A stretch of 32,008 nucleotides of DNA from a virus, in IMG/VR virus record IMGVR_UViG_3300028862_000081, positions 1 to 32,008 of that record. One strand, 5' to 3'. The translations under genes were made by a program, and so were the position numbers. The notes below the pieces were generated by a model. It was given only the letters and a program-made list of their open reading frames with translations. It ran no database searches and was not told the origin of the DNA. Shown one piece after another: positions 5,504 through 32,008 of this stretch; within the stretch, counting starts at the first letter, position 1; each line of letters begins with the position of its first letter.

Positions 5504-6481
5504 CTAGAGGGCTTTATTATATAGACGTATAGATGAATCTACTCTGGTAGGATTCTTAGGATACCGTTTTATAAGAAATTGCTCAAATGTAAGGGATTTG
5601 AAGAATTGCACCTGATTACACCACGACGCCAGATCCACATAGAAGTCAGAGTACACGCTGCCCCAGCAAGAAATATCACGCATGATATAAGGGAGTATTT
5701 TATGATCCCCACACCACATAATACGAAATACTGTATCCTCTAAGGACATAGATGGATGAACATAAACATAAAACTTTATTTGCCAATCTTTTCGCCAATT
5801 CAACAGGGGTAATTTCTCCTCTATCACTGGTAAATATGCTTTATTATCAAAAGCAAAAATATACTCCTTCATATAACGCAATCTACTAAGCAGCACACTG
5901 TTTTCTGAATCCAGTAGACGTATATCAAGTCCTTGGTTAAACTGACAGCGTATTCTTTTCTCCACAAGCTCTGATAATATAGCTTTATGTGATGGGAGGG
6001 CAAGTATATTATTGTCCATAAAGACCGTACCCCTATTATTTCCTCCTACTATAGCATCTGTAGTAGAAACTTGTCTGATTATCCCTTCTTTTTCAGGGAC
6101 AAAGCAGAAAGAACACTTTCTGATACAACCCCGAGTGATAAACCCATAATTATAGGTATTTTCCTCATATAAAGTGTAATCTGGTTGCAAACACTCAATA
6201 TAGTCGGGAAGACATGCTTTTATATCTCCTGACCCTGTGCCGCCATATATAATCCCTTTTCCAGAGATATACTTTCTATTGCCCATGAATACAACGGAAC
6301 AATAAACCCTGTCGTATGCTGTTGTATCTATATGGTGAGGCGTCTTTTTCCTGTTTGGATAGTATGGAATATTTAGACATACTAGTTGTATTGTGTCGCC
6401 AAGAGCTTTATGGTGAGTACTCAATTTCATAAGGGCCAAGTTAGGGATGGTTGAATCTGCATCTATTAATAATATGTTCAT
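5504..6481 (-). CDS. Radical SAM protein
   Basis: The 325-residue protein has the 4Fe-4S-binding CxxxCxxC of radical SAM enzymes in FITRGCIRKCSFCFV (C119, C123, C126). Before it lies a Rossmann-like region (MNILLIDADSTIPNLALMK) placed like the cobalamin-binding domain of B12-radical SAM enzymes. I do not see the DxHxxG cobalamin motif, so B12 use is doubtful. The substrate is unknown; RNA, nucleotide or peptide modification are options. The chosen ATG lies exactly where transcription from the promoter at 6488-6517 should begin and has no ribosome site, so the mRNA may be leaderless. The gene stands alone between two direct-repeat copies, as if inserted as a unit. Confidence 0.8.
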   Translation of the reverse strand: MNILLIDADSTIPNLALMKLSTHHKALGDTIQLVCLNIPYYPNRKKTPHHIDTTAYDRVYCSVVFMGNRKYISGKGIIYGGTGSGDIKACLPDYIECLQPDYTLYEENTYNYGFITRGCIRKCSFCFVPEKEGIIRQVSTTDAIVGGNNRGTVFMDNNILALPSHKAILSELVEKRIRCQFNQGLDIRLLDSENSVLLSRLRYMKEYIFAFDNKAYLPVIEEKLPLLNWRKDWQIKFYVYVHPSMSLEDTVFRIMWCGDHKILPYIMRDISCWGSVYSDFYVDLASWCNQVQFFKSLTFEQFLIKRYPKNPTRVDSSIRLYNKAL

Positions 6482-6487
6482 AATGAC

Positions 6488-6517
6488 ACTGTACCACGAA
6501 GATGGTAGGTGTGTCAA
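6488..6517 (-). promoter_or_regulatory. Promoter of the radical-SAM gene, placed for a leaderless mRNA
   Basis: TTGACA (6517-6512), 18 bp, TACAGT (6493-6488) on the minus strand. Only six bases separate the -10 element from the ATG at 6481, so the A of the start codon would be about +1. Confidence 0.7.
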
Positions 6518-10614: not shown

Positions 10615-11085
10615 TTAGAACGCTTGCATATAGTCAAAATAAAGAGAAAAAGCTTCCTCCGTGTTACCGGCGCCAGAATAAATGGGTATGATTTTTTTTG
10701 CTATTAATCTTTCCGCCTCTTGTTTTTTTGCGTTCCGCTCTTCAGGCGTGTTACAGAATACGAACGATTTTATGGTCTCATGATCGCCGATATTGATAGG
10801 GTGTTTCACTTCTTTATAGTTGTTATTTTCAAATATATCAGTGTAACACTTTCGGCATGCATCGGCAACGGCAGAACTAAACTTGTCATATCCGTATCCA
10901 CCGGCATAACCTTCACCAGCAACATAAATTCCATTGTACGAATTTCCGCTATACAACTGGACAAGCGCACGGCACATTCCCGAGTCCGTCCAACGTGCTA
11001 AAATCCGGCCTTCCTTTTCTTTTGTTACCTTATTAAGTAACAAAATTACGGTATCCATTGGATAATCAACAAAGTGTTTTCCCAT
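10615..11085 (-). CDS. Hypothetical protein (156 aa), first gene of the island
   Basis: A weak GGGAAA site precedes the ATG (MGKHFVDYPMDTVILLLNK). The centre holds a Gly/Tyr-rich segment (YVAGEGYAGGYGYDKFSSAV) followed by a helical, charged C-terminal half with EERNAKKQEAERLIAKK. I do not recognise a family. The promoter at 11134-11162 makes it the first gene transcribed, which is typical of early host-takeover genes, but no function is shown. Confidence 0.7.
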   Translation of the reverse strand: MGKHFVDYPMDTVILLLNKVTKEKEGRILARWTDSGMCRALVQLYSGNSYNGIYVAGEGYAGGYGYDKFSSAVADACRKCYTDIFENNNYKEVKHPINIGDHETIKSFVFCNTPEERNAKKQEAERLIAKKIIPIYSGAGNTEEAFSLYFDYMQAF

Positions 11086-11133
11086 TTTTTCCCTTTCCGG
11101 TTTATAGGCTTTCCGGTTGCCTTGATATACTAG

Positions 11134-11162
11134 ATAATAATGATATGAGCATTGAGAGTCAA
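11134..11162 (-). promoter_or_regulatory. Promoter of the small-gene island
   Basis: TTGACT (11162-11157), 17 bp, TATTAT (11139-11134) on the minus strand. Confidence 0.75.
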
Positions 11163-11245
11163 TACATTTATAGGTTTATTTTAAGCGAATTTATACGATT
11201 TTTATTGTCTTCTATATATACACTGATTTTATGTTTCTTATAAAG

Positions 11246-11519
11246 TTATACACAATATGGAATTCTTAAAATTCAGTACTTTAGGCGAATTCTCTATGGT
11301 TCAACGTACGGAGAAAACCGACGAGCCGATATAGTTTCTACAAATGCCCAAATTTTGCGTTATACGGAGAATTTCAAAATATGTGAATTTTTCCGGTCAA
11401 AGTTATTCGCAAGTTATCCACAATCGGTTGTCCACAAGTTATCCACAGCCCTTGACTTTTTTGTCTTATTATGATACTATACAATAAGTTATGCACAATT
11501 TGTCAACAAGTTATACACA
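11246..11519 (+). other. Cluster of DnaA boxes, candidate replication origin
   Basis: Five perfect matches to the DnaA box TTATNCACA lie on the same strand: 11246-11254, 11414-11422, 11439-11447, 11489-11497 and 11511-11519. Two one-mismatch copies lie among them (TTATTCGCA at 11403-11411, TTGTCCACA at 11428-11436). The four sites from 11403 to 11447 are spaced 11, 14 and 11 bases, roughly one helical turn. A long AT-rich tract without genes follows on the right. In bacteria this arrangement marks an origin opened by DnaA. No dnaA gene is visible here, so a host protein would have to act. Confidence 0.7.
11452..11480 (+). promoter_or_regulatory. Rightward promoter inside the DnaA-box cluster
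   Basis: TTGACT (11452-11457), 17 bp, TACTAT (11475-11480) on the plus strand, between DnaA boxes at 11439 and 11489. No plus-strand gene follows for about 2.7 kb, so the product would be a noncoding or priming transcript. Confidence 0.6.
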
Positions 11520-12228
11520 AGCTGCGTTATATCCTATCAATTCGCTTCAATTCTGATATTTCCTAGTAGGATAGTAGTATATAGCTGGCTTACATTTCTT
11601 CTTATTTACTTTGAAAAACAACAAGAACTTCAGTCGTATATACATTATATACATGTATAGTATAATTATAGAGAAAAATTTCAAAAACTTTTTGGTCTCA
11701 GATTTTTATCAGGGAAATATTGTTTTTAAGGCTACTTTTTATTGAATTTTATCGTTTTATAATTAGTTATATAAATTAAATAAAAATAATCCCGTTTTTT
11801 CCTGTAAAAATACTTTTTGCTGATTTTAGTGTTATATTTGTTGTCTTTTTATCTTTATCAGCAGTCTTTTTGTTGTTTTTACCTTGTAAATTAATATTTT
11901 CTTTCTTACTATCTGTTTTATTTATTATTTTTTAGTTTGTTATTTTATTCATTTTCTGGATTTATTATATTGTTTTTCTTATATTGTTTTTCTTAACTTT
12001 ATCTTAACTTTAATCAAACTTATCTGTCATTTTTATCTTTAATTTCAGGTATATTTACCTTTGTTTCTTTGTTTCTTTTTGTATTAATTTTCGTCAGATT
12101 GAATCAAATATATTTTCTTTGTTATGTTTTTTATTTGTTTTTGTTACTTTATTTTTTATCTATTTTGTATAATTAATTTTCGTCTTTTTAAATTGAATAT
12201 TTATTTCTATATTCCCGTGTATTAATCG
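11520..12228. other. Gene-free, strongly T-rich tract
   Basis: About 700 bases with no supportable gene. The plus strand is dominated by T from about 11640 to 12200, with runs such as TTATATTGTTTTTC repeated twice near 11968-11995 and TTAATTTTCGTC repeated near 12085 and 12174. TAGTAGGATAGTAGTATATAG at 11564-11584 resembles DnaA-trio repeats. The position beside the DnaA boxes fits a DNA-unwinding element; transcription of a noncoding RNA is also possible. Confidence 0.6.
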
Positions 12229-12264
12229 AAAAAAGCCAAAATGAAACGAACATTTTTAATAGGC
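12229..12264 (-). terminator. Terminator of the TerS operon
   Basis: On the minus strand GCC (12264-12262) and AAAATG (12256-12251) pair with CATTTT (12243-12238) and GGC (12237-12235), followed by TTTTTT (12234-12229). A 5-base bulge separates the two stem parts. It overlaps the stop codon of the zinc-ribbon gene. Confidence 0.6.
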
Positions 12265-12471
12265 ATTTCTATAGCCATCCTTAATCTGCTGAATACTTTC
12301 GTCATTCTCTTCCACAGATTGTGTCTCGTTGCCACACACACTACATACTCTTCCTGTCTCTGAGTACGTCACTGGCTTACCATGCCACATAATCTCTCTA
12401 TCCTCACAGTAGGGTATATGCGAGGTGAACTTCCCGCACTCTATACAAAAATCATTTATCATCTTCTTCAT
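12256..12471 (-). CDS. YgiT/MqsA-type zinc-ribbon protein (71 aa)
   Basis: The protein has CIECGK near the start and CSVCGN about 34 residues later, with a beta-rich stretch (VTYSETGRVC) before the second pair. This is the zinc-ribbon layout of the N-terminal half of MqsA/YgiT antitoxins. The following acidic helix (NDESIQQIKDGYRNAY) also fits, but the DNA-binding HTH half is missing. It starts with an ATGA overlap at the end of the TerS-like gene. It may be a stand-alone metal-binding regulator; there is no toxin gene beside it. Confidence 0.65.
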   Translation of the reverse strand: MKKMINDFCIECGKFTSHIPYCEDREIMWHGKPVTYSETGRVCSVCGNETQSVEENDESIQQIKDGYRNAY

Positions 12472-13082
12472 GTGAGTACCTTTGCAGGTGCTTTGCTGAA
12501 TATACTATCTATCATCTCTCGTGTTTCCATATCGTTTATATTACCTTCTTTATCTTTAGTAGTCTCGCTGCGGAGCTTTATTATCTCTAGCATAGTGCTC
12601 GTAGTCTTTCTCTTGTCTGGTAAGTCGTATGTTATATGAACTCCACCATCTCTGTCAAGCATCATGTTGACATTATTTATCATTTTTCTTTTTGCGGGGG
12701 ATATGCTGTCTAGTGGTCTAGGGGATCCATCAGAGAAGTAATAGTCAAATATGTCCAGATTACGTAACTCATTTAAGTCTTGTAATAGCTGGACAGGAAG
12801 GACACTACATGCCTCATCCCATATCATATCTAAGAGCTTATCTATCCCTGATTTTATCTTCTCATTACTCAGGAGTTTCTTATAGCGGGGGAGAGCCTGT
12901 TTCTGATCTACACCATACACTTCTTTATAGGCAGCAAGGCCGTCAAAATTATTACTTACATACTTATATACAAATAGAATCTCAAGGGGTTCTAGCTTTA
13001 GTTCTGTTAAGAGGTCGTCGTCATAGTCAGGTAGGATAGTCTTAATCTCGGACTCTACATACTCTTGAAGTTCATTCTTCAT
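12468..13082 (-). CDS. Terminase small subunit-like protein
   Basis: The 204-residue, mostly helical protein contains FVYKYVSNNFDGLAAYKEVYG (about 37-57) followed by a helical region with LPRYKKLLSNEKIKSGIDK. This matches the general Terminase_2/P22-type small subunit pattern (recruit, helix-turn-helix with 'AAY..GY', then 'LL.n..v...i'). A small subunit recognises the packaging start site and loads TerL. A beta-hairpin-like GGVHITYDLPDKR segment lies further on. It overlaps the HNH-like gene by 11 bases. It is unusually far (about 11 kb) from terL. Assignment rests on pattern only. Confidence 0.6.
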   Translation of the reverse strand: MKNELQEYVESEIKTILPDYDDDLLTELKLEPLEILFVYKYVSNNFDGLAAYKEVYGVDQKQALPRYKKLLSNEKIKSGIDKLLDMIWDEACSVLPVQLLQDLNELRNLDIFDYYFSDGSPRPLDSISPAKRKMINNVNMMLDRDGGVHITYDLPDKRKTTSTMLEIIKLRSETTKDKEGNINDMETREMIDSIFSKAPAKVLT

Positions 13083-13967: not shown

Positions 13968-14050
13968 GAATTCCACTGAATTCTAATATAGTACTCTATA
14001 TTTCTTAATTATATACCTTATCCTATTATATATATTATATGTTATAGTAC

Positions 14051-14142
14051 GAGAAAAACCTATCTACCTTGTAGAGAAAAACCTATCTACCTTGTAGAGA
14101 AAAACCTATCTACCTTGTAGAGAAAAACCTATCTACCTTGTA
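14051..14142 (+). repeat. Iteron-like array: four perfect 23-bp tandem repeats
   Basis: Four identical copies of a 23-base unit (GAGAAAAACCTATCTACCTT plus GTA) occupy 14051-14073, 14074-14096, 14097-14119 and 14120-14142, with no spacers. The array lies between the divergent promoters at 13939-13967 and 14180-14208, directly upstream of an initiator-like gene. A 23-bp period places sites on roughly the same helix face, typical of replication iterons or of cooperative operators. Confidence 0.9.
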
Positions 14143-14208: not shown

Positions 14209-14230
14209 CTCTTTTTAGAGGAGATAATAT

Positions 14231-15619
14231 ATGTCTGAACTACAAAAAGAAAAACGGGGGTATGAGTTTTTCACTATACCCCGATTAAATATAGATGCCT
14301 GTAAGGAATATACAGATATAGGTGCTATGGGATTTATGATGGTATCTTGGCTATCTGAATTTTATGAGCCTGTACGATTGGCTCTGTCAGATGGATCTGA
14401 TCCTCTTGCAGTGAGTAAACATCGTACATATTCATATGAGGGAAGAATTTACCTACAAATATCCTCATCTCTGGCTATTAACCAGTTTAGTGCGTTTGGA
14501 TTAGATACGCCATATAAAGTACATTATCTTCTGGATAAATTGGCAAATCCCTCATGTGGAAAGCCACTTATCAAAATACATTTATTTGGGGATAAAGTGG
14601 CTAGATGCTCTCTAAGGGCTATATATCCTACAGAACATCTTACTAGATTAGTAGTAAATAATACTCATATAGAGAAAAATGAGCAATATGATAATGATGA
14701 AGAACCTCCTACTCCACCTGAACCAGAGGAAGAATATGCTCCTAGTAAGGAATTCTTACAATTTGTAGAGGATACCAAGGATATTCCTGCCTTAGCTAAA
14801 TGTAACGTAAAGAAGCTGCGCGGAGATGGGTATACTAAAGATGCTATGAACGCAGACAAGATACTAAAAACCTTCCTAGAAGGGTCTGTAATAGCACACT
14901 ATGGCACGAATTTCACACGCAAAGTGACTCAGGCACAGTTGGACACCATGACATACGAGGACATCGTGAAATGCGTCCATAATTACACTTATGCCCAAGC
15001 CCCCAGTTTTGCTACAGCGCTTATGCATTTTGATAGAAAGTACTCCCCTGTTATTAACCAATATCTGAAAGAAGTGCCAAAAGATAAAACCGTACCTTCT
15101 AAGAAAGTTGACCCTACGAAACTACCTGCGGAACTACGTATCTTCTACGGTGGAACGTATTCGGAAGGTACGCGGATTGGTATAAATGACAGGATAATGA
15201 ACAAAGCGGGGCAGGAGAAATTCTACACTCACTTCAAACCTTATGATGAACGGTTTTTTAACCTTTATGGTAAGTTTGCCGAATATATAGATGATATGGG
15301 AGAAGCACTCAAGAAGATAAACACCAAGAGAGTTACCCCCTTGACACTTCTGAATAGCTATGTTAAGATGTTGAAGTCTCAGACAGATCCTTATGTAGAG
15401 ACAACTCTTGAGAATGATTTAGAGTATATGGCTATGGGAAACAGTAAGAACGATAATTTTAAGCGTTTTGCTATTTATGCCTGTATGCAAGAAGGTATAT
15501 ATATTTCCTTTAACGAGGGGTTAAATAGTTGGTTAAGGAAACAAATGAGGGGTAAAGAGGTTGCATCTATGGGAGATGTTATAAAGGCATCTATGTCCGT
15601 TAGAGATTTAGAGTATTAG
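14231..15619 (+). CDS. Replication initiator-like protein (462 aa)
   Basis: AGAGGAGA precedes the ATG. The N-terminal 150 residues alternate helices and short strands (FFTIPRLNIDA, FMMVSWLSEFYEPVRLALSD, then YEGRIYLQISSSLAINQF and VHYLLDKLANP), consistent with a winged-helix DNA-binding domain as in phage and plasmid initiators. An acidic Pro-rich linker follows (NDEEPPTPPEPEEEY, about 155-169), and then a mainly helical C-terminal domain with no ATPase motif that I can see. Its position right after a tandem iteron array, and first in the replication operon, supports an origin-binding role. A transcription regulator acting on the same repeats is the main alternative. Confidence 0.5.
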   Translation: MSELQKEKRGYEFFTIPRLNIDACKEYTDIGAMGFMMVSWLSEFYEPVRLALSDGSDPLAVSKHRTYSYEGRIYLQISSSLAINQFSAFGLDTPYKVHYLLDKLANPSCGKPLIKIHLFGDKVARCSLRAIYPTEHLTRLVVNNTHIEKNEQYDNDEEPPTPPEPEEEYAPSKEFLQFVEDTKDIPALAKCNVKKLRGDGYTKDAMNADKILKTFLEGSVIAHYGTNFTRKVTQAQLDTMTYEDIVKCVHNYTYAQAPSFATALMHFDRKYSPVINQYLKEVPKDKTVPSKKVDPTKLPAELRIFYGGTYSEGTRIGINDRIMNKAGQEKFYTHFKPYDERFFNLYGKFAEYIDDMGEALKKINTKRVTPLTLLNSYVKMLKSQTDPYVETTLENDLEYMAMGNSKNDNFKRFAIYACMQEGIYISFNEGLNSWLRKQMRGKEVASMGDVIKASMSVRDLEY

Positions 15620-16675: not shown

Positions 16676-17644
16676 ATGAAGATGGAGGACATTGGGTTTT
16701 ATACTTTATCTGATAAAAGAGCAAAAGAGGTTTCTTGGAAAAGTGATCTTCAAAGATGTGAATTAATTGTTACAAACAGGTGTAATTTCAGATGCCCTTA
16801 TTGTAGGGGCATCGTCCCTGAACTACAGGGGGATATGACCCTTGATCAGGCAAAAGAGGTTATTGATATTTGGGCGAGTGGTAACATCCAGAACGTTAGG
16901 TTCTCTGGTGGTGAACCCACTGTTTGGAAACCGTTGCTTGAATTAGTTCATTATACTAAATCAAAGCCTTCTATAAAGCATATTGCACTATCGACTAATG
17001 GAAGTGCAGACTTTGCGACATACTTAGAGTTGTTTAAGGTGGGGGTAAATGATTTTTCAATCTCGCTTGATGCATGCTGCGCTTCCACTGCTGATACTAT
17101 GGCTGGTACCACAAGTAGATTCGACCATATCAGTAAAATGATTTTTGAATTAAGTCAGTTAACTTATGTATCAGTGGGTGTAGTTCTCGACCAACAGAAC
17201 AACGTAGAGTTGAATAAGATTATTGATTATGCAACATCCTTGGGGGTTTCTGACATCAGAATTATCCCTTCTGCTCAGTCAAATCACAGACTGGAAGTAG
17301 ACGTAAAGACAAACTATAAGATATTGAACTACCGAATTAACAATATTAAGAATGGTATCCATGTGCGAGGAATAAAAGACTCAGATTGTAATAGGTGTCA
17401 TTTAGTTAAAGATGATATGGTAGTTCTGCATGGGAAACACTTTCCTTGTGTAATTTATATGCGAGAGCGGGGGGCACCTATTGGGGATGTTTATGGTAAA
17501 ACGCTTGCGCAAATTCGTAAAGAACGAAAAGATTGGTTTGATAACACAGATACAAAGCAGGATAAAATATGCAAACAGAATTGTTTAGACGTTTGTATAG
17601 CGCACAATAATAGGGTAGAAGAGTATGAAATCAAAAATTCCTAA
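16676..17644 (+). CDS. Radical SAM/SPASM-like protein (322 aa)
   Basis: AGGGGG precedes the ATG. The CxxxCxxC motif lies in VTNRCNFRCPYCRG (C36, C40, C43), followed by SGGEP at 77-81, the SAM-binding motif of the family. The C-terminus carries further cysteines in CNRCHLVK, FPCVIY and ICKQNCLDVC, consistent with a SPASM-like auxiliary iron-sulfur region as in peptide-modifying and MoaA-like enzymes. The substrate is unknown. Its last 20 bases overlap the small gene at 17625, which is a possible partner or substrate. It needs anaerobic or protected conditions, which fits an anaerobic host. Confidence 0.85.
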   Translation: MKMEDIGFYTLSDKRAKEVSWKSDLQRCELIVTNRCNFRCPYCRGIVPELQGDMTLDQAKEVIDIWASGNIQNVRFSGGEPTVWKPLLELVHYTKSKPSIKHIALSTNGSADFATYLELFKVGVNDFSISLDACCASTADTMAGTTSRFDHISKMIFELSQLTYVSVGVVLDQQNNVELNKIIDYATSLGVSDIRIIPSAQSNHRLEVDVKTNYKILNYRINNIKNGIHVRGIKDSDCNRCHLVKDDMVVLHGKHFPCVIYMRERGAPIGDVYGKTLAQIRKERKDWFDNTDTKQDKICKQNCLDVCIAHNNRVEEYEIKNS

Positions 17645-21323: not shown

Positions 21324-22430
21324 ATGCAGATAATTAAAGGAAAGTACAATTCAGCAAATGTTATGATAGATACCGTGGATGAATCCACTCGGTCGCAAAT
21401 TCAAGGGTTTGTAAATAACCCGTCTTTTGCAGGATCGTATATAGCTATCATGCCAGATTGCCATGCAGGTGCAGGGTCATGTATAGGATTTACTATGCAG
21501 ATGAATGACAGGATTATCCCCGCAGTAGTTGGTGTTGATATTGGGTGTCAAATGCGTTCGGCTAAGTTCAAAGTAGATAATTTTGACCTTCCCGCATTTG
21601 ACAAGTTCATCCACGAGAATATACCATCTGGATTTAATATCAATAATAAGATCTCAAATCTTAATTTCTGGGCACCCACTGCATTACGTGTTGGGGCAGA
21701 TTTAGCACGAGTATCACGTTCTATAGGGACGCTTGGTGGAGGGAACCACTTCATTGAAGCGGGGTATGATTCAGAGGGATATCTTTGGGTCACGGTTCAT
21801 TCAGGATCACGTAACTTTGGTTTGCAAATAGCAAAATACTACGGTGGTGTGGCAGAGTCAGTATGTCGTCGGTATGGAGCTGATACGCAAGGAATTCCGT
21901 TTCTGCTAGTTGACTCTCCAGAAGGAAAGGCGTATATTGAAGATCAGCTTGTTGGAGTAGAATATGCAAGAGCTAATACCAATGCTATGATGGAGAGGAT
22001 TACTAAGTTCTTCAATAAGGACTACGAAGATTTAGTAATATCAGTTCATAATTTCATAGGGGATGACGGTATGATCCGTAAGGGTGCTACCGAAGCCGAA
22101 GAAGGACAGAGACTTATTATCCCGTTCAATATGCGTGACGGTCTCGCTATCTGTGTGGGTAAAGGAAGTAAGAAGTATAACTATTCGGCTCCGCATGGTG
22201 CGGGACGGATACTTTCTCGTTCTAAGGCAAAGGCTACGTTGGATGTAGATTACTTTCAGGAGGAAATGAAACTCTCTGGAGTATATACTACTACAGCAAA
22301 TAAGGGAACTCTTGACGAGTCTCCTGATGCTTATAAGGATAAGGATATTATTCTTGAGAACATCAAAGAGACTGTAGACGTTGTAGAGTTCATCAAACCA
22401 GTGTATAATTTCAAAGCAGGAGGCGAATAA
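21324..22430 (+). CDS. rtcB: RtcB-type RNA ligase
   Basis: TAGGAGGT precedes the ATG. The 368-residue protein has the full RtcB set of motifs: MPDCHAGAG (43-51) and GVDIGCQM (70-77) with the metal-binding Asp, His and Cys, GGGNHFIE near 135, VHSGSRNFG near 160, and APHGAGR with the guanylated His at about 291. RtcB joins 3'-phosphate or cyclic-phosphate RNA ends to 5'-OH ends using GTP and Mn2+, as needed to heal tRNAs cut by host anticodon nucleases. It overlaps the next gene by one base (TAATGG). This is the short, bacterial-type form. Confidence 0.95.
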   Translation: MQIIKGKYNSANVMIDTVDESTRSQIQGFVNNPSFAGSYIAIMPDCHAGAGSCIGFTMQMNDRIIPAVVGVDIGCQMRSAKFKVDNFDLPAFDKFIHENIPSGFNINNKISNLNFWAPTALRVGADLARVSRSIGTLGGGNHFIEAGYDSEGYLWVTVHSGSRNFGLQIAKYYGGVAESVCRRYGADTQGIPFLLVDSPEGKAYIEDQLVGVEYARANTNAMMERITKFFNKDYEDLVISVHNFIGDDGMIRKGATEAEEGQRLIIPFNMRDGLAICVGKGSKKYNYSAPHGAGRILSRSKAKATLDVDYFQEEMKLSGVYTTTANKGTLDESPDAYKDKDIILENIKETVDVVEFIKPVYNFKAGGE

Positions 22431-22717
22431 TGGATTGCAAGATCGACATGTCATGGATTAGAAAAGAGGCAAATTATGTCCTGTCACAAGAGGTACAGAG
22501 GAAACTTTATGGGCGCGTGGAAATTGATGCTATAACACCATACCTCTATCTTGAGGGAGTAAGACTTTTGTTTGGACACAAGAAAGCAACTTTTGATAAC
22601 TGCAAAAGCAGAGAAGTTTCTGTAAATGATGTCCTTTCTGGTCGGTGGAAAGTCAAAGAGATGACCAAGAGTGAAATTGAAAAAGCTTTGGGATATGATA
22701 TTAAGATAGTGAAATAA
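22430..22717 (+). CDS. Hypothetical protein with shared IEKALGY tail (95 aa)
   Basis: AGGAGGCG precedes the ATG, which follows the RtcB stop (TAATGG). The body is charged and helical (MDCKIDMSWIRKEANYVLSQ), with a strand-rich end. The last 18 residues read MTKSEIEKALGYDIKIVK, nearly the same as the tail of the next gene. In such pairs the tail is likely to be a small docking or beta-hairpin module. Function unknown. Confidence 0.7.
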   Translation: MDCKIDMSWIRKEANYVLSQEVQRKLYGRVEIDAITPYLYLEGVRLLFGHKKATFDNCKSREVSVNDVLSGRWKVKEMTKSEIEKALGYDIKIVK

Positions 22718-22727
22718 GGGGGTGAGT

Positions 22728-23357
22728 ATGACAACGTTAGAAAAAGCAGAACATATTATGAAAAACCATAACTGTACTGGGTTTTGGTGTTCGTGTGATG
22801 GGACATATTGTCCTGCATTACGTTGTAATTGTAAGGATAGATATGGAAAGCTCACAGATAATGCTATCAAAGCCGCACAGGCATATATTGACGCGAATAA
22901 GCCAAAGGAGAATAAGTTGAAGACAGTAAAAGAATTTTATCAGTACATAGTAGACAGTTATGAAAGGGGAAATCCCCGATGTGATATGGGGAGTAGTCCT
23001 TATGAATTTAAGCTTTGTAGTAAGTGCCCTGCAACACATCTTTGCGGGAATGATTCTAGAGCACGATATGAATTCTGCAAAGCACAGTTGGCAAAAGAAA
23101 CAGAATTCAAGTATGGACAGGTAGTGTATAACAAACGAGGCAACCTATATACTTTTCTATTTAAGGCAGAGGATGGAACTATGCTGGGTGCGAAGGGGAT
23201 TATTATTCCTCCCGTTACCAATACTAGGGCATGTACATGTACGCTTGTAGTGGACACTTTTTACACAGAGGATCCTACCAAGAAAGAAAAGACCATGACT
23301 ATTACAGATATCGAAAAGGCTCTTGGTTACAAAATTAAAGTAGTAGGAGAAAAATAA
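22728..23357 (+). CDS. Cysteine-rich protein with IEKALGY tail (209 aa)
   Basis: GGGGG lies five bases before the ATG at 22728; a GTG at 22722 is also possible. Cysteines are clustered as NCTGFWCSCDGTYCPALRCNC near the start and CSKCPATHLC later, consistent with two small metal-binding modules. The C-terminal MTITDIEKALGYKIKVV matches the tail of the preceding gene. Overlaps the next gene by one base (TAATGG). I do not know the family; it may be a DNA or RNA binding adaptor. Confidence 0.7.
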   Translation: MTTLEKAEHIMKNHNCTGFWCSCDGTYCPALRCNCKDRYGKLTDNAIKAAQAYIDANKPKENKLKTVKEFYQYIVDSYERGNPRCDMGSSPYEFKLCSKCPATHLCGNDSRARYEFCKAQLAKETEFKYGQVVYNKRGNLYTFLFKAEDGTMLGAKGIIIPPVTNTRACTCTLVVDTFYTEDPTKKEKTMTITDIEKALGYKIKVVGEK

Positions 23358-23569
23358 TGGACTCTATGGAGTATGATGAGTACAGAAGTCGTCTCCGTAT
23401 GATGGACGACACAGAACTAGACCTTGAGATGGACGATTCTTTTATCCAGATGGCTGATGAGGATGAGTCTATCAAGTATGTTCTGTGCGTCCAAGAGCAT
23501 AGAGATAGGGTTCGTAAAGAGAAAGATGCCTATTATATGCAAGTGGCGCGTGATCCTTTATGGAATTAG
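23357..23569 (+). CDS. Small acidic protein (70 aa)
   Basis: It starts in a TAATGG overlap at the stop of the preceding gene, with AGGAG upstream. The protein (MDSMEYDEYRSRLRMMDDTE...) is highly charged and mainly helical, with an acidic first half. No motif recognised. Confidence 0.65.
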   Translation: MDSMEYDEYRSRLRMMDDTELDLEMDDSFIQMADEDESIKYVLCVQEHRDRVRKEKDAYYMQVARDPLWN

Positions 23570-23610
23570 AAGAGGAATTTCAGCGACATTATGGGAAACA
23601 GGAGGAAATT

Positions 23611-23808
23611 ATGGAAAAAGATTATCTGGCAGAAGTGCCACAAAATACAGTATGTTATAGTTGCCAAAACAGGTATGTGGATGCGTTAAAAAACAACCGA
23701 TGTCACGTCCATACTAATTATTACACAGATCGGGAAATTCTACCTGTATGTACTGAATATGAAGTGTGTGATTATTATAAGCAATTAGCTAGGGAGGTAT
23801 GTAGATGA
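23611..23808 (+). CDS. Small cysteine-rich protein (65 aa)
   Basis: I choose the ATG at 23611 because CAGGAGG lies directly upstream; an earlier in-frame ATG at 23560 has no ribosome site. The product (MEKDYLAEVPQNTVCYSCQN...) holds CYSCQ and further Cys and His (CHVHTNYY, VCTEYEVC), consistent with a small zinc site. It overlaps the nucleotidyltransferase start by ATGA. Function unknown. Confidence 0.65.
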   Translation: MEKDYLAEVPQNTVCYSCQNRYVDALKNNRCHVHTNYYTDREILPVCTEYEVCDYYKQLAREVCR

Positions 23809-24479
23809 TAAATTTGGAAGTTCGTAGGCCGGAGTTGGTGAAGAATATCCTTCATCAGATATGTGGTAAAGAGGCATTTATTTGTGGGGGGTTTGCACGC
23901 GTTGTATGCTCTCCTTGTACTGCCCCTATTCCGTCAGAGGATATTGATATATACCTCCTCTCTAAAGATAGTTTTCCTCTTTTGGAAACACGTCTTAAAG
24001 AGTTGTTATATATCAAGTCAAAAGAAAATGATGTCTCGTGTGTATTTACGTATGCTATTACGTCAGACACACTTCATCCTCCTATCAATTTGATTAAGCC
24101 TATAGAGAATGGACATCTTCATACTTTTGGGGATATAGATAAGATCTTGGAAAACTTTGATTTTACTATAGCCCGATGTGGTATCTACCTTTCTGATGGT
24201 ATGGAAATTAAAGCTAGGGGAGATGAGGATTTTGAAAATAACGAGAGGGATCACATCCTCATTATCAAGAATATCCATTGCCCTATAGCAGAGGTTACAA
24301 GGATTTCTAAGTATATGGCTAGAGGGTACAAAATTCCCCTTATGCAAATAGTGAGATGTTTCTTGGATTGGGAAGGAAGAGATCCTACTTACAGGAATGA
24401 ATTGGTCGCAGCACTCGAAAAAGATAAACTCACGGATAAAGATAAAGAAGAGTTGTATAAACGACTATATGTAGATTAA
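23805..24479 (+). CDS. Nucleotidyltransferase of the CCA-adding / poly(A) polymerase head type (224 aa)
   Basis: GGGAGG precedes the ATG. The motif CGGFAR (27-32) followed by SEDIDIYL (44-51) is the GG...DxD signature of the class II nucleotidyltransferase head, with D46 and D48 as metal ligands. LENFDFTIARCGI (about 115-127) is a second typical strand. CCA-adding enzymes repair or build the 3' end of tRNA; the tRNA in this window lacks an encoded CCA. The protein is short (bacterial CCA enzymes have about 400 residues), so the tRNA-binding C-terminal part is reduced. A nucleotide-modifying role on another substrate is the alternative. Confidence 0.7.
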   Translation: MINLEVRRPELVKNILHQICGKEAFICGGFARVVCSPCTAPIPSEDIDIYLLSKDSFPLLETRLKELLYIKSKENDVSCVFTYAITSDTLHPPINLIKPIENGHLHTFGDIDKILENFDFTIARCGIYLSDGMEIKARGDEDFENNERDHILIIKNIHCPIAEVTRISKYMARGYKIPLMQIVRCFLDWEGRDPTYRNELVAALEKDKLTDKDKEELYKRLYVD

Positions 24480-24488
24480 GGAGGAATT

Positions 24489-24785
24489 ATGCAATTTGAG
24501 ACACTTTGTATGGGAAGAGATAATTGGAGAGGAAAAATCCGATACGGAAATGATATAGAGTATCTATGCCATACTATGGATGCGGTCATCTTTACAAAAA
24601 GAGACTTATCAGAAGTAGATCATAGATGTTATACGTATCATACAGAAAAAGAAGTAATAGACCTGTTTAAGTTATACATAAGTCAGGAAAAGATAAGAAG
24701 AGACGAAACCGCACAATATGCCTTACTAGGACATGTCTTTTCTCTAGCAGAAGATGAGATCACACTAGTTAAGATGACTGAGTAA
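24489..24785 (+). CDS. Hypothetical protein (98 aa)
   Basis: AAGGAGGA precedes the ATG (MQFETLCMGRDNWRGKIRYG). It looks like an alpha-beta protein with a helical KEVIDLFKLYISQEK segment. No motif recognised. It lies between the nucleotidyltransferase and DnaB-like genes. Confidence 0.65.
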   Translation: MQFETLCMGRDNWRGKIRYGNDIEYLCHTMDAVIFTKRDLSEVDHRCYTYHTEKEVIDLFKLYISQEKIRRDETAQYALLGHVFSLAEDEITLVKMTE

Positions 24786-24804
24786 GTTTAATCAAGGAGA
24801 TTAA

Positions 24805-26214
24805 GTGAAGAGAGAAACAATTGATTTAAGTGTAGAACGCACCCTTATCACACTTCTACTTATGTCAGATGTAGTGTGTACTAAGATTATCCCTATAATT
24901 AAACCACAGTATATGCAATCAGCGTATTCTAGGGAAATTGTAGCATGGGTTATGGAGTATTATGAGAAGTATAAAGAGGCACCGAAAGATAGCATACAAA
25001 GCATATTTGAACAAAAACGTGCTTATGTTGCTGATGAAGAGGTGCTTACATCTATAGGTGAGTTTCTTGGTAGTTTGAGTGACGATTATGATCCCGAGCA
25101 ATATACCAATATAGACTACTTTGTAGATAACTCAGAAAAATATATCCGTAGGTGTTCTGTCTCTCTATTTAAGGAACGCCTTGAGGCGTGTATGCTGGCA
25201 GGAGAGATAGAAAAGGCAGAACAGCTCATAGCCACATATACGCAGCCGGGGATACCACAGGATACGGGAATAGACATCCTACATGATCATGCTGCCATTA
25301 TAGAGGCTCTTACTACAGGAAGTACGCCTTTATTCACTATACCGGGGGATTTAGGGCTTGTTTGTAATGATTTCTACCGTGGAGATGTATCTTGTTGGCT
25401 AGGAAGGGCAAAAGCCGGAAAGTCTTGGGCCACACTCTATACAGGTGAACAGGCTATGATGCAAGGGTGCAAAGTCACGTATATATCTCTCGAAATGCGT
25501 AAAGAAGAGGCTATAGGACGTGAAGCTATGTCTCTGCAATGGGAAACCCGTACTCCAAGGTCTATCTCCGTCCCCTCCTTTCATTCTGAGAGGGAAGCTG
25601 GGGAGCAAGACAGGGAAGACACTATATTCTCTGTTATGCATGATATGGTGGAAAAAGAGGGGATAAACCTCAGTAATCTAGGGGAATTGGAAAACCAGTT
25701 TAAGATGCGTACAGGCGGGGGAGGCATGAAATTCTTTTTTATGCCTGCAGAAGCCACGACTATTGAAACTATAGACGCATTGCTAGACAATTTGATGTAT
25801 TACCAAGGGTGGAATACTGACGTCCTTTTGATTGATTACGCAGACCTTATGTCTGCCGGAAACAGGGAAGTACGTCACGGATTGGACTATATCTTTAGGA
25901 ATTTGCGCCGTATAGCACAGATGAGGAATATACATATTTCTACCCCGTCGCAGAGTAATTATGTGGGGGATAAAGATGACGGGGAGCTGAGTGAGGCGAA
26001 CGTAGCGGAAGATAAGCGTAAATTGGGACACGTAGCGAAGTTGCTGGCGTTGTATAACACTAAAGAGGAACGTAGTAAAGGGATACTACACGTAAAATCG
26101 ATAGTTGACAGATACGAGCCAAAGACGTATGATACGGCTATAGTGCTGCAATGTCTGGCTATGGGTAAGTTTTGTGTGGATTCAAAGTTATCTGCTAAAG
26201 TAACTTTACAATAA
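24805..26214 (+). CDS. DnaB-like replicative helicase (469 aa)
   Basis: The start is a GTG with AAGGAG upstream. The N-terminal domain (about 1-150) is helical as in DnaB, and the RecA-like motor has Walker A GRAKAGKS (200-207), Walker B LLIDYAD with D344, and TPSQSNY (a DnaB-type sensor motif) further on. A positive KRETIDLSVERTLI-like start and a GGGG loop (RTGGGGMKFFF) lie between. It unwinds the template ahead of the polymerase; the primase is encoded nearby. Of 19 Ile codons in the first 166 residues, ten are ATA. Confidence 0.85.
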   Translation: MKRETIDLSVERTLITLLLMSDVVCTKIIPIIKPQYMQSAYSREIVAWVMEYYEKYKEAPKDSIQSIFEQKRAYVADEEVLTSIGEFLGSLSDDYDPEQYTNIDYFVDNSEKYIRRCSVSLFKERLEACMLAGEIEKAEQLIATYTQPGIPQDTGIDILHDHAAIIEALTTGSTPLFTIPGDLGLVCNDFYRGDVSCWLGRAKAGKSWATLYTGEQAMMQGCKVTYISLEMRKEEAIGREAMSLQWETRTPRSISVPSFHSEREAGEQDREDTIFSVMHDMVEKEGINLSNLGELENQFKMRTGGGGMKFFFMPAEATTIETIDALLDNLMYYQGWNTDVLLIDYADLMSAGNREVRHGLDYIFRNLRRIAQMRNIHISTPSQSNYVGDKDDGELSEANVAEDKRKLGHVAKLLALYNTKEERSKGILHVKSIVDRYEPKTYDTAIVLQCLAMGKFCVDSKLSAKVTLQ

Positions 26215-26227
26215 AGGAGAAGTTATA

Positions 26228-27475
26228 ATGGATAATAACAAAGCATTTAGAGCGTTTTTAGCTAACATCAGGAAAATTGAAGGTGCCGACAAAATCGTCC
26301 AAGCATCGGTAACACTAGCAGGAGTACCTATTGCAGACGTAGTAGTAGGTGTGGATACGGTGGAAGGTACAGAGGTAGTTTACTTTGACAGTAATATGTG
26401 CCTCAGTGACACTTTCCTTAATTATCGCCCAGAACTCAAGACATACCTTGCAAAAGGCAACCGTGTGCGGTGTATTAAACTCAAAGGAGTTATCTCAAAT
26501 GGTCTTTGCGTCCCTATTGAGGTATTATACGGGATGTCAAAACAAGATATTCCAGAAAGTTTCACTCATATCGACGGTGTAGAAATTTGTAAGAAATGGG
26601 TACCAGAAGTGACTCCACAAGGCTCTCGCAGCAGTAAGATGGGGCATGCTAAGAATGCAAAGAAGCCATCACGGGTTATCCCCGAGTTGTTTCATTTCCA
26701 TGTGGATACACAACAGCTTGCAAGGAATCTGCATAAGATCAACACAGATGACATTATTTCTATTAGCCGTAAAATTCATGGCACAAGTGCGATTTGTGGC
26801 CGCCTGCCTGTTAAGAAACCACTTACACTTGTTGGAAAGCTTCTCAGCAAGCTAGGCATTTCTGTACAAAACACCATGTACGACTATCTATACGCTTCCA
26901 GAACGGTTATTAAGAACGTCACCGAGGGCGATTTTACAGATCTTTGGTCTACTGTGGGTGGGGCGAATTTCTTGGGTAAACTGAATAAAGGTGAAACTGT
27001 CTACTACGAAATTGTGGGGTATATGCCGGGGACACAGACGTTTATCCAGAAGAATTATGATTATGGATGCAAACCGGGGGATTACAAGATTGCCGTCTAC
27101 CGTATTACGCAGACAAACGAAGACGGTGTGGTATTTGAGTACGGATGGGCAGCCATGAAAGAACGGTGTGTGGAACTCGGCGTTCCTATGGTGGAAGAAT
27201 ACTACTATGGTAAAGCGTCTGATTGGAAACACACATATTCATCCATAACAGATCTCCCAGCATGGAGAGTAGAATTTATGTCTCTATTAAAAGAACACTA
27301 TCTTGAAAAAGATGCACAGGATAATCTTTGTAAGAAGATGCCAGATGAGGGTATAGTCCTTCGTGTAGAAGCCAAAGAGATCACAGTATTCAAACTCAAG
27401 AGTGAGCGATTTTTCTTGAATGAATCAGCAAGTAAAGACGCAGGAGAGCTTGACATAGAAGAGCAAATAGTGTAG
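26228..27475 (+). CDS. RNA ligase of the Rnl5/DRB0094 type (415 aa)
   Basis: AAGGAGAAG precedes the ATG. The N-terminal region (about 10-105, with ASVTLAGVPIADVVVG and RCIKLKGVISNGLC) is an OB-like domain as in the Deinococcus DRB0094 ligases. The nucleotidyltransferase domain follows: SRKIHG with the lysine nucleophile at about K182 (motif I, KxHG), YYEIVGY (motif IIIa), PDEGIVLRV (motif IV) and VFKLKS (motif V). Such ligases seal RNA ends through adenylation. With RtcB and the nucleotidyltransferase it makes up an RNA repair set. Its stop codon lies within the next promoter. Confidence 0.9.
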   Translation: MDNNKAFRAFLANIRKIEGADKIVQASVTLAGVPIADVVVGVDTVEGTEVVYFDSNMCLSDTFLNYRPELKTYLAKGNRVRCIKLKGVISNGLCVPIEVLYGMSKQDIPESFTHIDGVEICKKWVPEVTPQGSRSSKMGHAKNAKKPSRVIPELFHFHVDTQQLARNLHKINTDDIISISRKIHGTSAICGRLPVKKPLTLVGKLLSKLGISVQNTMYDYLYASRTVIKNVTEGDFTDLWSTVGGANFLGKLNKGETVYYEIVGYMPGTQTFIQKNYDYGCKPGDYKIAVYRITQTNEDGVVFEYGWAAMKERCVELGVPMVEEYYYGKASDWKHTYSSITDLPAWRVEFMSLLKEHYLEKDAQDNLCKKMPDEGIVLRVEAKEITVFKLKSERFFLNESASKDAGELDIEEQIV

Positions 27476-28141: not shown

Positions 28142-28215
28142 TGGAGAGTAGCTCAGTCGGTTAGAGCAGGATCCTTATAAGGTCAAGGTCGATAGTTCAA
28201 TTCTATCCTCTCCAA
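28142..28215 (+). tRNA. tRNA-Ile with UAU anticodon
   Basis: A 74-base cloverleaf: the 7-bp acceptor TGGAGAG pairs with CTCTCCA, the D arm is GCTC/GAGC with AGTCGGTTA, the T arm is GATAG TTCAATT CTATC, and the discriminator is A. The anticodon loop CTTATAA gives UAU, reading AUA. The anticodon stem is weak (GGATC with GGTCA: one G-A mismatch at its base and a U-G pair). No CCA is encoded. Ile(UAU) is rare in bacteria, which normally read AUA with lysidine-modified CAU. Confidence 0.85.
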
Positions 28216-31425: not shown

Positions 31426-32008
31426 ATGTGTAAATTTTTTAGTTTTGTTGGGGATGGATATGGCAATTTCTTGTATTCTGATTGGTCGGTAAGAAAGGCG
31501 CTTATTGATAATAAGTCAGATGACTCTCCCGATTCTCATACATGGATACTGACAGGCAATAATGTCCCGGCTAATAGGCAGGATAGATGGTCAAAGTATG
31601 AGTATAACCCTTTGACGAAGAAGTTCACGTTAGATACGCCTGTAGAAGGGCATGATCACGAAGCAGCGGAAAATTGGGTGAACACACTTAACTTCAAAAA
31701 TATTGTTCCTGCCCTTGTTACCAAAAAAATCAAAAACCTGCTAAACAAGGTGGTAAAGGTCACAGAAGCAGATATAGCACTTCTAAAGGAATGGGATTCG
31801 GTCTGGGAGTCGGTCTGGGAGTCGGTCAGGGATTCGGTCTGTGATTCGGTCAGGGATTTAGTCGGGGAGTCGGTCTGTGATTCGGTCTGTGATTCGGTCT
31901 GTGATTCGGTCTGGGATTCGGTCTGTGATTCGGTCTGTGATTCGGTCTGTGATTCGGTCTGGGATTCGGTCAGGGCTTCGGTCAGGGCTTCGGTCAGGGC
32001 TTCGGTCA
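31426..32008 (+). CDS. Protein with C-terminal DSV[W/C/R] tetrapeptide repeats (partial)
   Basis: The frame runs off the right edge. AAGGAAGG precedes the ATG. Residues 1-123 form an N-terminal domain (MCKFFSFVGDGYGNFLYSDW, later KYEYNPLTKKFTLD and LNFKNIVPAL); from memory this N-terminus occurs in gut phage proteins whose C-termini carry similar tetrapeptide runs, which I cannot verify. From residue 124 a 4-residue unit coded by a 12-base repeat runs 18 times (DSVW, ESVW, ESVR, DSVC and so on, DSVR, ASVR). Changes occur at the first and fourth positions while 'SV' is fixed but for one 'LV'. Function unknown. Confidence 0.75.
   Translation, partial: MCKFFSFVGDGYGNFLYSDWSVRKALIDNKSDDSPDSHTWILTGNNVPANRQDRWSKYEYNPLTKKFTLDTPVEGHDHEAAENWVNTLNFKNIVPALVTKKIKNLLNKVVKVTEADIALLKEWDSVWESVWESVRDSVCDSVRDLVGESVCDSVCDSVCDSVWDSVCDSVCDSVCDSVWDSVRASVRASVRASV
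31794..32008 (+). repeat. 12-bp tandem repeat array inside the terminal gene
   Basis: About eighteen units of the type GATTCGGTCTGT, in frame, continuing beyond the window. Units vary mainly in the first codon (GAT, GAG, GCT) and in the fourth (TGG, TGT, AGG, GGG), while TCG GTC is constant except for one TTA. Clusters of identical units (three GATTCGGTCTGT in a row, three GCTTCGGTCAGG in a row) suggest recent expansion by slippage or recombination. Confidence 0.9.

Follow-up and report, generated by a model that had tools for sequence, protein, structure and literature searches.

The window analysed here, meaning the whole 32,008-base virus record IMGVR_UViG_3300028862_000081, carries a cluster of DnaA boxes that is non-random, confined to one strand and helically phased. 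Judging from the sequence, orientation, phasing and density of the boxes, this array is very likely a genuine binding site for the DnaA protein of the host. Our favoured reading of its function, held with somewhat less than even confidence, is that this array captures host DnaA as an accessory of phage replication initiation, helping to open DNA and to load the phage helicase, with an iteron-like site as the phage-owned start.

Five perfect TTATNCACA boxes start at positions 11246, 11414, 11439, 11489 and 11511, all on the plus strand and within 274 bp (11246-11519). The most upstream one, TTATACACA (11246-11254), is isolated. The others belong to tandem groups with an 11-bp pitch: TTATTCGCA (one mismatch, at 11403) followed by the perfect TTATCCACA (11403-11422), TTGTCCACA (one mismatch, at 11428) followed by a second TTATCCACA and then GCCC (11428-11447), and finally the perfect TTATGCACA, the two-mismatch copy TTGTCAACA at 11500 and another perfect TTATACACA (11489-11519). 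The five perfect and two one-mismatch boxes of the original prediction, in a single orientation and spaced by about one helical turn, were thus all recovered, and the additional copy at 11500 completes an 11-bp triplet. Counting the weaker copies, the start-to-start steps from 11403 onwards are 11, 14, 11, 50, 11 and 11, giving two pairs and one triplet. A pitch of 11 bp corresponds to a 2-bp gap, which favours cooperative filling by DnaA in the oriC of Escherichia coli (PMC6727663). Results of the box count, which had been proposed as a check against the whole genome and shuffled controls, showed that the window has no perfect box outside 11246-11519. Dinucleotide shuffles of the whole window gave a mean of 1.9 perfect boxes, and 5000 shuffles of the segment 11240-11525 averaged 0.029, with at most 1 in any shuffle, against the 5 observed. 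The fifth base of the box varies among A, C, G and T, in line with the DnaA consensus, and the extended motif AAGTTATNCACAA is also retained where no box precedes it (11243, 11400 and 11486). A promoter-like sequence (TTGACT-17-TACTAT, with TG before the -10 element) lies between the box groups on the plus strand at 11452-11480, a match at chance frequency in this stretch; a leftward promoter-like site (11162-11134) is located directly left of the array.

We also compared the array with bacterial loci. The tandem unit AAGTTATNCACAAGTTATNCACAA was found in at least 119 of them, and dnaA was present in the same locus (within 8 kb) in 69 of the 119 listed. Tandems of the AAGTTATNCACAAGTTATNCACAA type together with the AAG context are typical of dnaA-linked bacterial loci, and the array shares its tandem unit with bacterial oriCs. 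The boxes adjoin a long T-rich tract, as had been predicted, and the gene-free gap (11086-12255, 1.17 kb, between the minus-strand ORFs 10615-11085 and 12256-12471) is larger than the roughly 700 bases first proposed. Within it, the tract 11641-12228 is a candidate unwinding region 3' of the boxes: T accounts for 327 of its 588 bases, the 300-bp window poorest in GC has only 17%, and the minima of duplex stability over the record at lengths of 100, 200 and 500 bp all lie there. The boxes are oriented toward this long stretch, the weakest in the window.

The resemblance to a bacterial oriC with a basal unwinding system (DnaA boxes plus DnaA-trio) is real, including TTATNCACA boxes, single orientation, tandem pairs with a 2-bp gap, AAG context and weak duplex on the 3' side, but it is incomplete. 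Unlike a bacterial oriC, the phage site has no dnaA gene within the fragment, no consensus DnaA-trio and a position away from the skew minimum, and a T-rich tract of about 590 bp takes the place of a short unwinding element. The DnaA-trio consensus was defined as 3'-GAT-5' repeats within about 16 bp of a box, the polarity of the score being checked on bacterial loci; by this score, none was detected beside a box of this array. A consensus trio was found beside a box in 17 of the 119 bacterial loci listed and in 1 of the 120 viral loci listed, and the score was positive in only 6 of 43 dnaA-linked bacterial loci. Because the trio is found in only a minority of dnaA-linked bacterial loci, its absence here is weak evidence alone, and the contrast between viral and bacterial loci is stronger. 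Under a permissive trio rule (PMC8287927), five weak NTN triplets (TTT TTT GTC TTA TTA) can be read on the plus strand at 11457-11471, 9 bp 3' of the 11439 box, which is roughly what chance would give in DNA so rich in T. The TAGTAG pairs at 11564-11577 were ruled out as a trio, as they have the wrong polarity and no box near enough.

A switch of GC skew at the array, the other expectation for an oriC, was not observed: the cumulative minimum of the window falls at 14211, where the genes diverge. Since skew follows gene orientation in this record, we rejected it as independent evidence of an origin. The total coding-strand skew of the genes at 12.2-13.9 kb is below that of the left arm; skew at codon position 3 showed no head-on effect for these genes.

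The divergent intergenic region between the two gene arms contains a second element, which the original prediction had overlooked. Approximately 2.5 kb to the right of the DnaA-box array, four perfect tandem 23-bp copies of GAGAAAAACCTATCTACCTTGTA (14051-14142, plus strand) lie beside the skew minimum, flanked by outward-facing promoter-like sites. The least stable 60-bp window of the record (13986-14045) is directly left of these repeats, and beside them on the plus strand is an orphan ORF of 462 amino acids (14231-15619), a candidate phage initiator. Together, repeats, weak 60 bp and ORF have the layout of a candidate iteron-type origin with its own initiator, the role of the ORF being suggested by its position; the repeats could alternatively be operators or terminase sites. 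The ORF matched no entry of Pfam, PHROGs, NCBIfam or PDB and gave no protein relatives, and its predicted fold is unreliable (pLDDT 32). Its residues 65-129 show low-confidence secondary-structure order compatible with a winged helix. The core of the 23-bp repeat was matched only twice among viral contigs, each time singly and both times in one other shared sequence context, and no pattern of iteron-like repeats was seen near other viral arrays. The arrangement recalls the origins of iteron plasmids and plasmid-prophages that use DnaA (P1 oriR, F, pSC101, RK2), which share DnaA boxes, an AT-rich region and short perfect tandem repeats that precede the gene of a candidate initiator. It differs from them in that boxes and repeats are separated by 2.5 kb instead of lying within a few hundred bp, and in that the neighbouring ORF matches no known Rep family.

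The gene content provides the context of both elements. The left arm, on the minus strand, encodes the terminase large subunit, a DNA methyltransferase, a radical SAM protein, small unknown ORFs, the terminase small subunit and a NinG/HNH-like nuclease. The right arm, on the plus strand from 14231, encodes the orphan ORF, a radical SAM protein, an SSB-like protein, primase, an SF2 helicase, RtcB, a nucleotidyltransferase, a DnaB-like helicase, an RNA ligase, tRNA-Ile and PolA. The phage therefore possesses its own primase, DnaB-like helicase, SSB-like protein and PolA, without DnaA in the record. The claim that no dnaA gene is visible was indeed borne out within the record, where DnaA domain IV (PF08299) had no match; as the record is a fragment, dnaA may be present elsewhere in the phage. 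Near-identical contigs found through TerL (L170-L173) extend further left and carry portal, head morphogenesis, protease and major head genes there, showing that the record represents only part of a tailed phage. Other features of the record were also noted. The genes for the large (228-1580) and small (12468-13082) terminase subunits are about 11 kb apart, the small one adjoining the NinG/HNH-like nuclease gene. An RNA-repair-like set (RtcB-type RNA ligase, nucleotidyltransferase and a second RNA ligase) forms one operon-like run at 21324-27475, followed by tRNA-Ile at 28142. The contig ends on a 12-bp coding repeat, TGGGATTCGGTC (31792-32007, about 18 copies, encoding an SVCDSV-type protein), and the relative L132 has a coding repeat of the same kind (L132:6457-6665). 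The two radical SAM proteins (5504-6517 and 16676-17644) have no assigned role; an anaerobic ribonucleotide reductase encoded by L132 (12208-14094) suggests an anaerobic host.

We also looked for relatives of the array region. None was found at the DNA level among sequenced phages, and none of the relatives retrieved with TerS, Pol or TerL as queries covered the array. TerS gave one distant match and the 462-aa ORF none, the Pol relatives L132/G002 and L142/G004 stop short of the region, the 89-kb relative G003 lacks a box cluster, and the TerL fragments L170-L173 extend left, away from it.

Phages had been thought to carry such a dense set of boxes only rarely, an idea that the viral sequences contradict. 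The 11-bp tandem pair TTATNCACAAGTTATNCACA occurs in at least 120 viral contigs and recurs in unrelated phages, while the same letters reversed occur in none. Non-redundant viral tandem sites lie outside ORFs in 67 of 95 cases (19.6 expected), their flanking genes are divergent in 28 cases and convergent in 5, and DnaA domain IV was found in 0 of the 50 long viral records with the tandem that were tested. Low GC on the 3' side was present at 33 of 63 viral arrays, and it was not upheld as a general rule. Among deposited phages, a 37-base tandem query matched 167 records at a lenient threshold, including several small-genome phages of 4-6 kb (H51-H53, H56, H57, H64 and H65, some of them named Microviridae), in which the matches are mostly outside annotated genes. 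Inspected examples with boxes include the T5-like phages KIT04, PG07, PM135 and GEC_vB_N3 and Lactococcus phage AM1; T5-like arrays are found near the pre-early A1/A2 genes. The N4-like phage LIT1 has one perfect and two one-mismatch boxes near its genome end. In the T7-like Berlinvirus phages P483 and A7, perfect and one-mismatch boxes form long runs on one strand at a pitch of about 11-12 bp (L314:3431-3556 and L312:22-147), in gene-free DNA near a packaging gene. These runs share the one-strand arrangement, pitch and setting with the array of the window and are denser, with at least 8 boxes each when one-mismatch copies are counted. Replication of T7-type phages starts from RNA-polymerase transcripts and, to our knowledge, neither T7-like nor N4-like phages start replication through DnaA; an array alone does not, therefore, mean an origin. 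In published work, DnaA boxes are named as a feature of the injection stop signal of T5 (PMC13250531), and an Ori-Finder prediction with DnaA boxes exists for phage PseuGes_254 (PMC11512268). A survey of such arrays across phages was not found in the literature searched and may exist elsewhere.

Considering all these data, we propose that DnaA of the host would bind cooperatively within the groups of 11-bp pitch, giving a short filament directed rightward, to the side of the T-rich tract. This filament could strain or open the adjoining weak duplex and might aid the loading of the phage's own DnaB-type helicase, replication probably starting at the iteron-like region with its weakest 60 bp, 23-bp repeats and 462-aa ORF at the skew minimum. 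Both the replication role of the array and its connection with the iteron-like region are what we infer from this arrangement. We favour an accessory role because the box density exceeds that of shuffles, with all perfect boxes in one place at an 11-bp pitch; because a near-identical tandem marks dnaA-linked bacterial loci and the boxes face the long tract of lowest stability; because the phage has its own replisome genes, no DnaA, and iteron-like repeats, weak duplex and orphan ORF at the skew minimum; and because viral tandem pairs are enriched and non-coding. Against it stand the missing consensus trio, here and at nearly all viral arrays listed, the skew minimum off the array, the inconsistent low GC 3' of viral arrays, the boxes in T7-like and N4-like phages, a distance of 2.5 kb that is unlike iteron plasmids, and the fact that none of the relatives found covers the array region.

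The proposal that the phage recruits host DnaA, either to start replication or to titrate it, is very likely right as far as capture is concerned, is supported only in part for a start of the oriC type, and titration is possible. Capture with no origin role is a somewhat unlikely explanation, in which titration would stop host initiation, or DnaA would gate early transcription or a staged entry of DNA, as in the T5 injection-stop proposal. It would account for boxes in phages whose replication is not known to depend on DnaA (Berlinvirus P483 and A7, N4-like LIT1), for the T5-like arrays near A1/A2 with the boxes listed for the stop signal, for the absence of a consensus trio and for the leftward promoter-like site adjoining the array. 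The window resembles the T5-like region in that its DnaA-box array lies within extended non-coding DNA of a large phage genome, but no A1/A2-like PHROG was found among the neighbours scanned and the record, a fragment, has no defined genome end. Moreover, titration would not call for a long T-rich weak duplex 3' of the boxes, a single copy with five strong boxes offers few sites for it, and gene orientation around the arrays varies between phages.

A stand-alone DnaA-dependent origin, at which DnaA alone would open the T-rich tract (11.6-12.2 kb) and replication would start there, appears improbable to us. The directional boxes with adjoining weak duplex and the permissive trio candidate speak for it, as does the lower total skew of the genes at 12.2-13.9 kb, which would be consistent with head-on encounters with a fork coming from the array; this effect is however absent at codon position 3, the skew minimum is at 14211, a consensus trio is lacking and the iteron-type candidate competes within the same window. 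The oriC-like layout is thus confirmed in its phased one-strand boxes and its weak duplex, and not in trio or skew. It is very improbable, in our view, that the AAGTTATNCACAA repeats serve as operators or iterons of a protein of the phage whose specificity only looks like that of DnaA. Such a protein would fit with a retained motif longer than the 9-bp box and with several adjoining ORFs of no assigned function, but dnaA-linked bacterial loci typically show this extended AAG context and the 11-bp tandem, and the variable fifth base follows the DnaA consensus.

In conclusion, the window contains two candidates that can be separated, the DnaA array and the iteron-like region, and the role of each can be tested on its own. 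A cluster of DnaA boxes in a phage is not readable as an origin by itself, as such arrays recur across unrelated phages, some of which are not known to replicate by way of DnaA. It is conceivable, though we think it unlikely, that unrelated DnaA-less phages independently carry phased host-DnaA-box arrays, trio-less, non-coding and often early or terminal, as a widespread capture device that is not an origin, the window being one instance. If true, such a device would block host initiation or time early transcription or DNA entry, and common capture of the host initiator by phages would be a testable and little-described route of host takeover.
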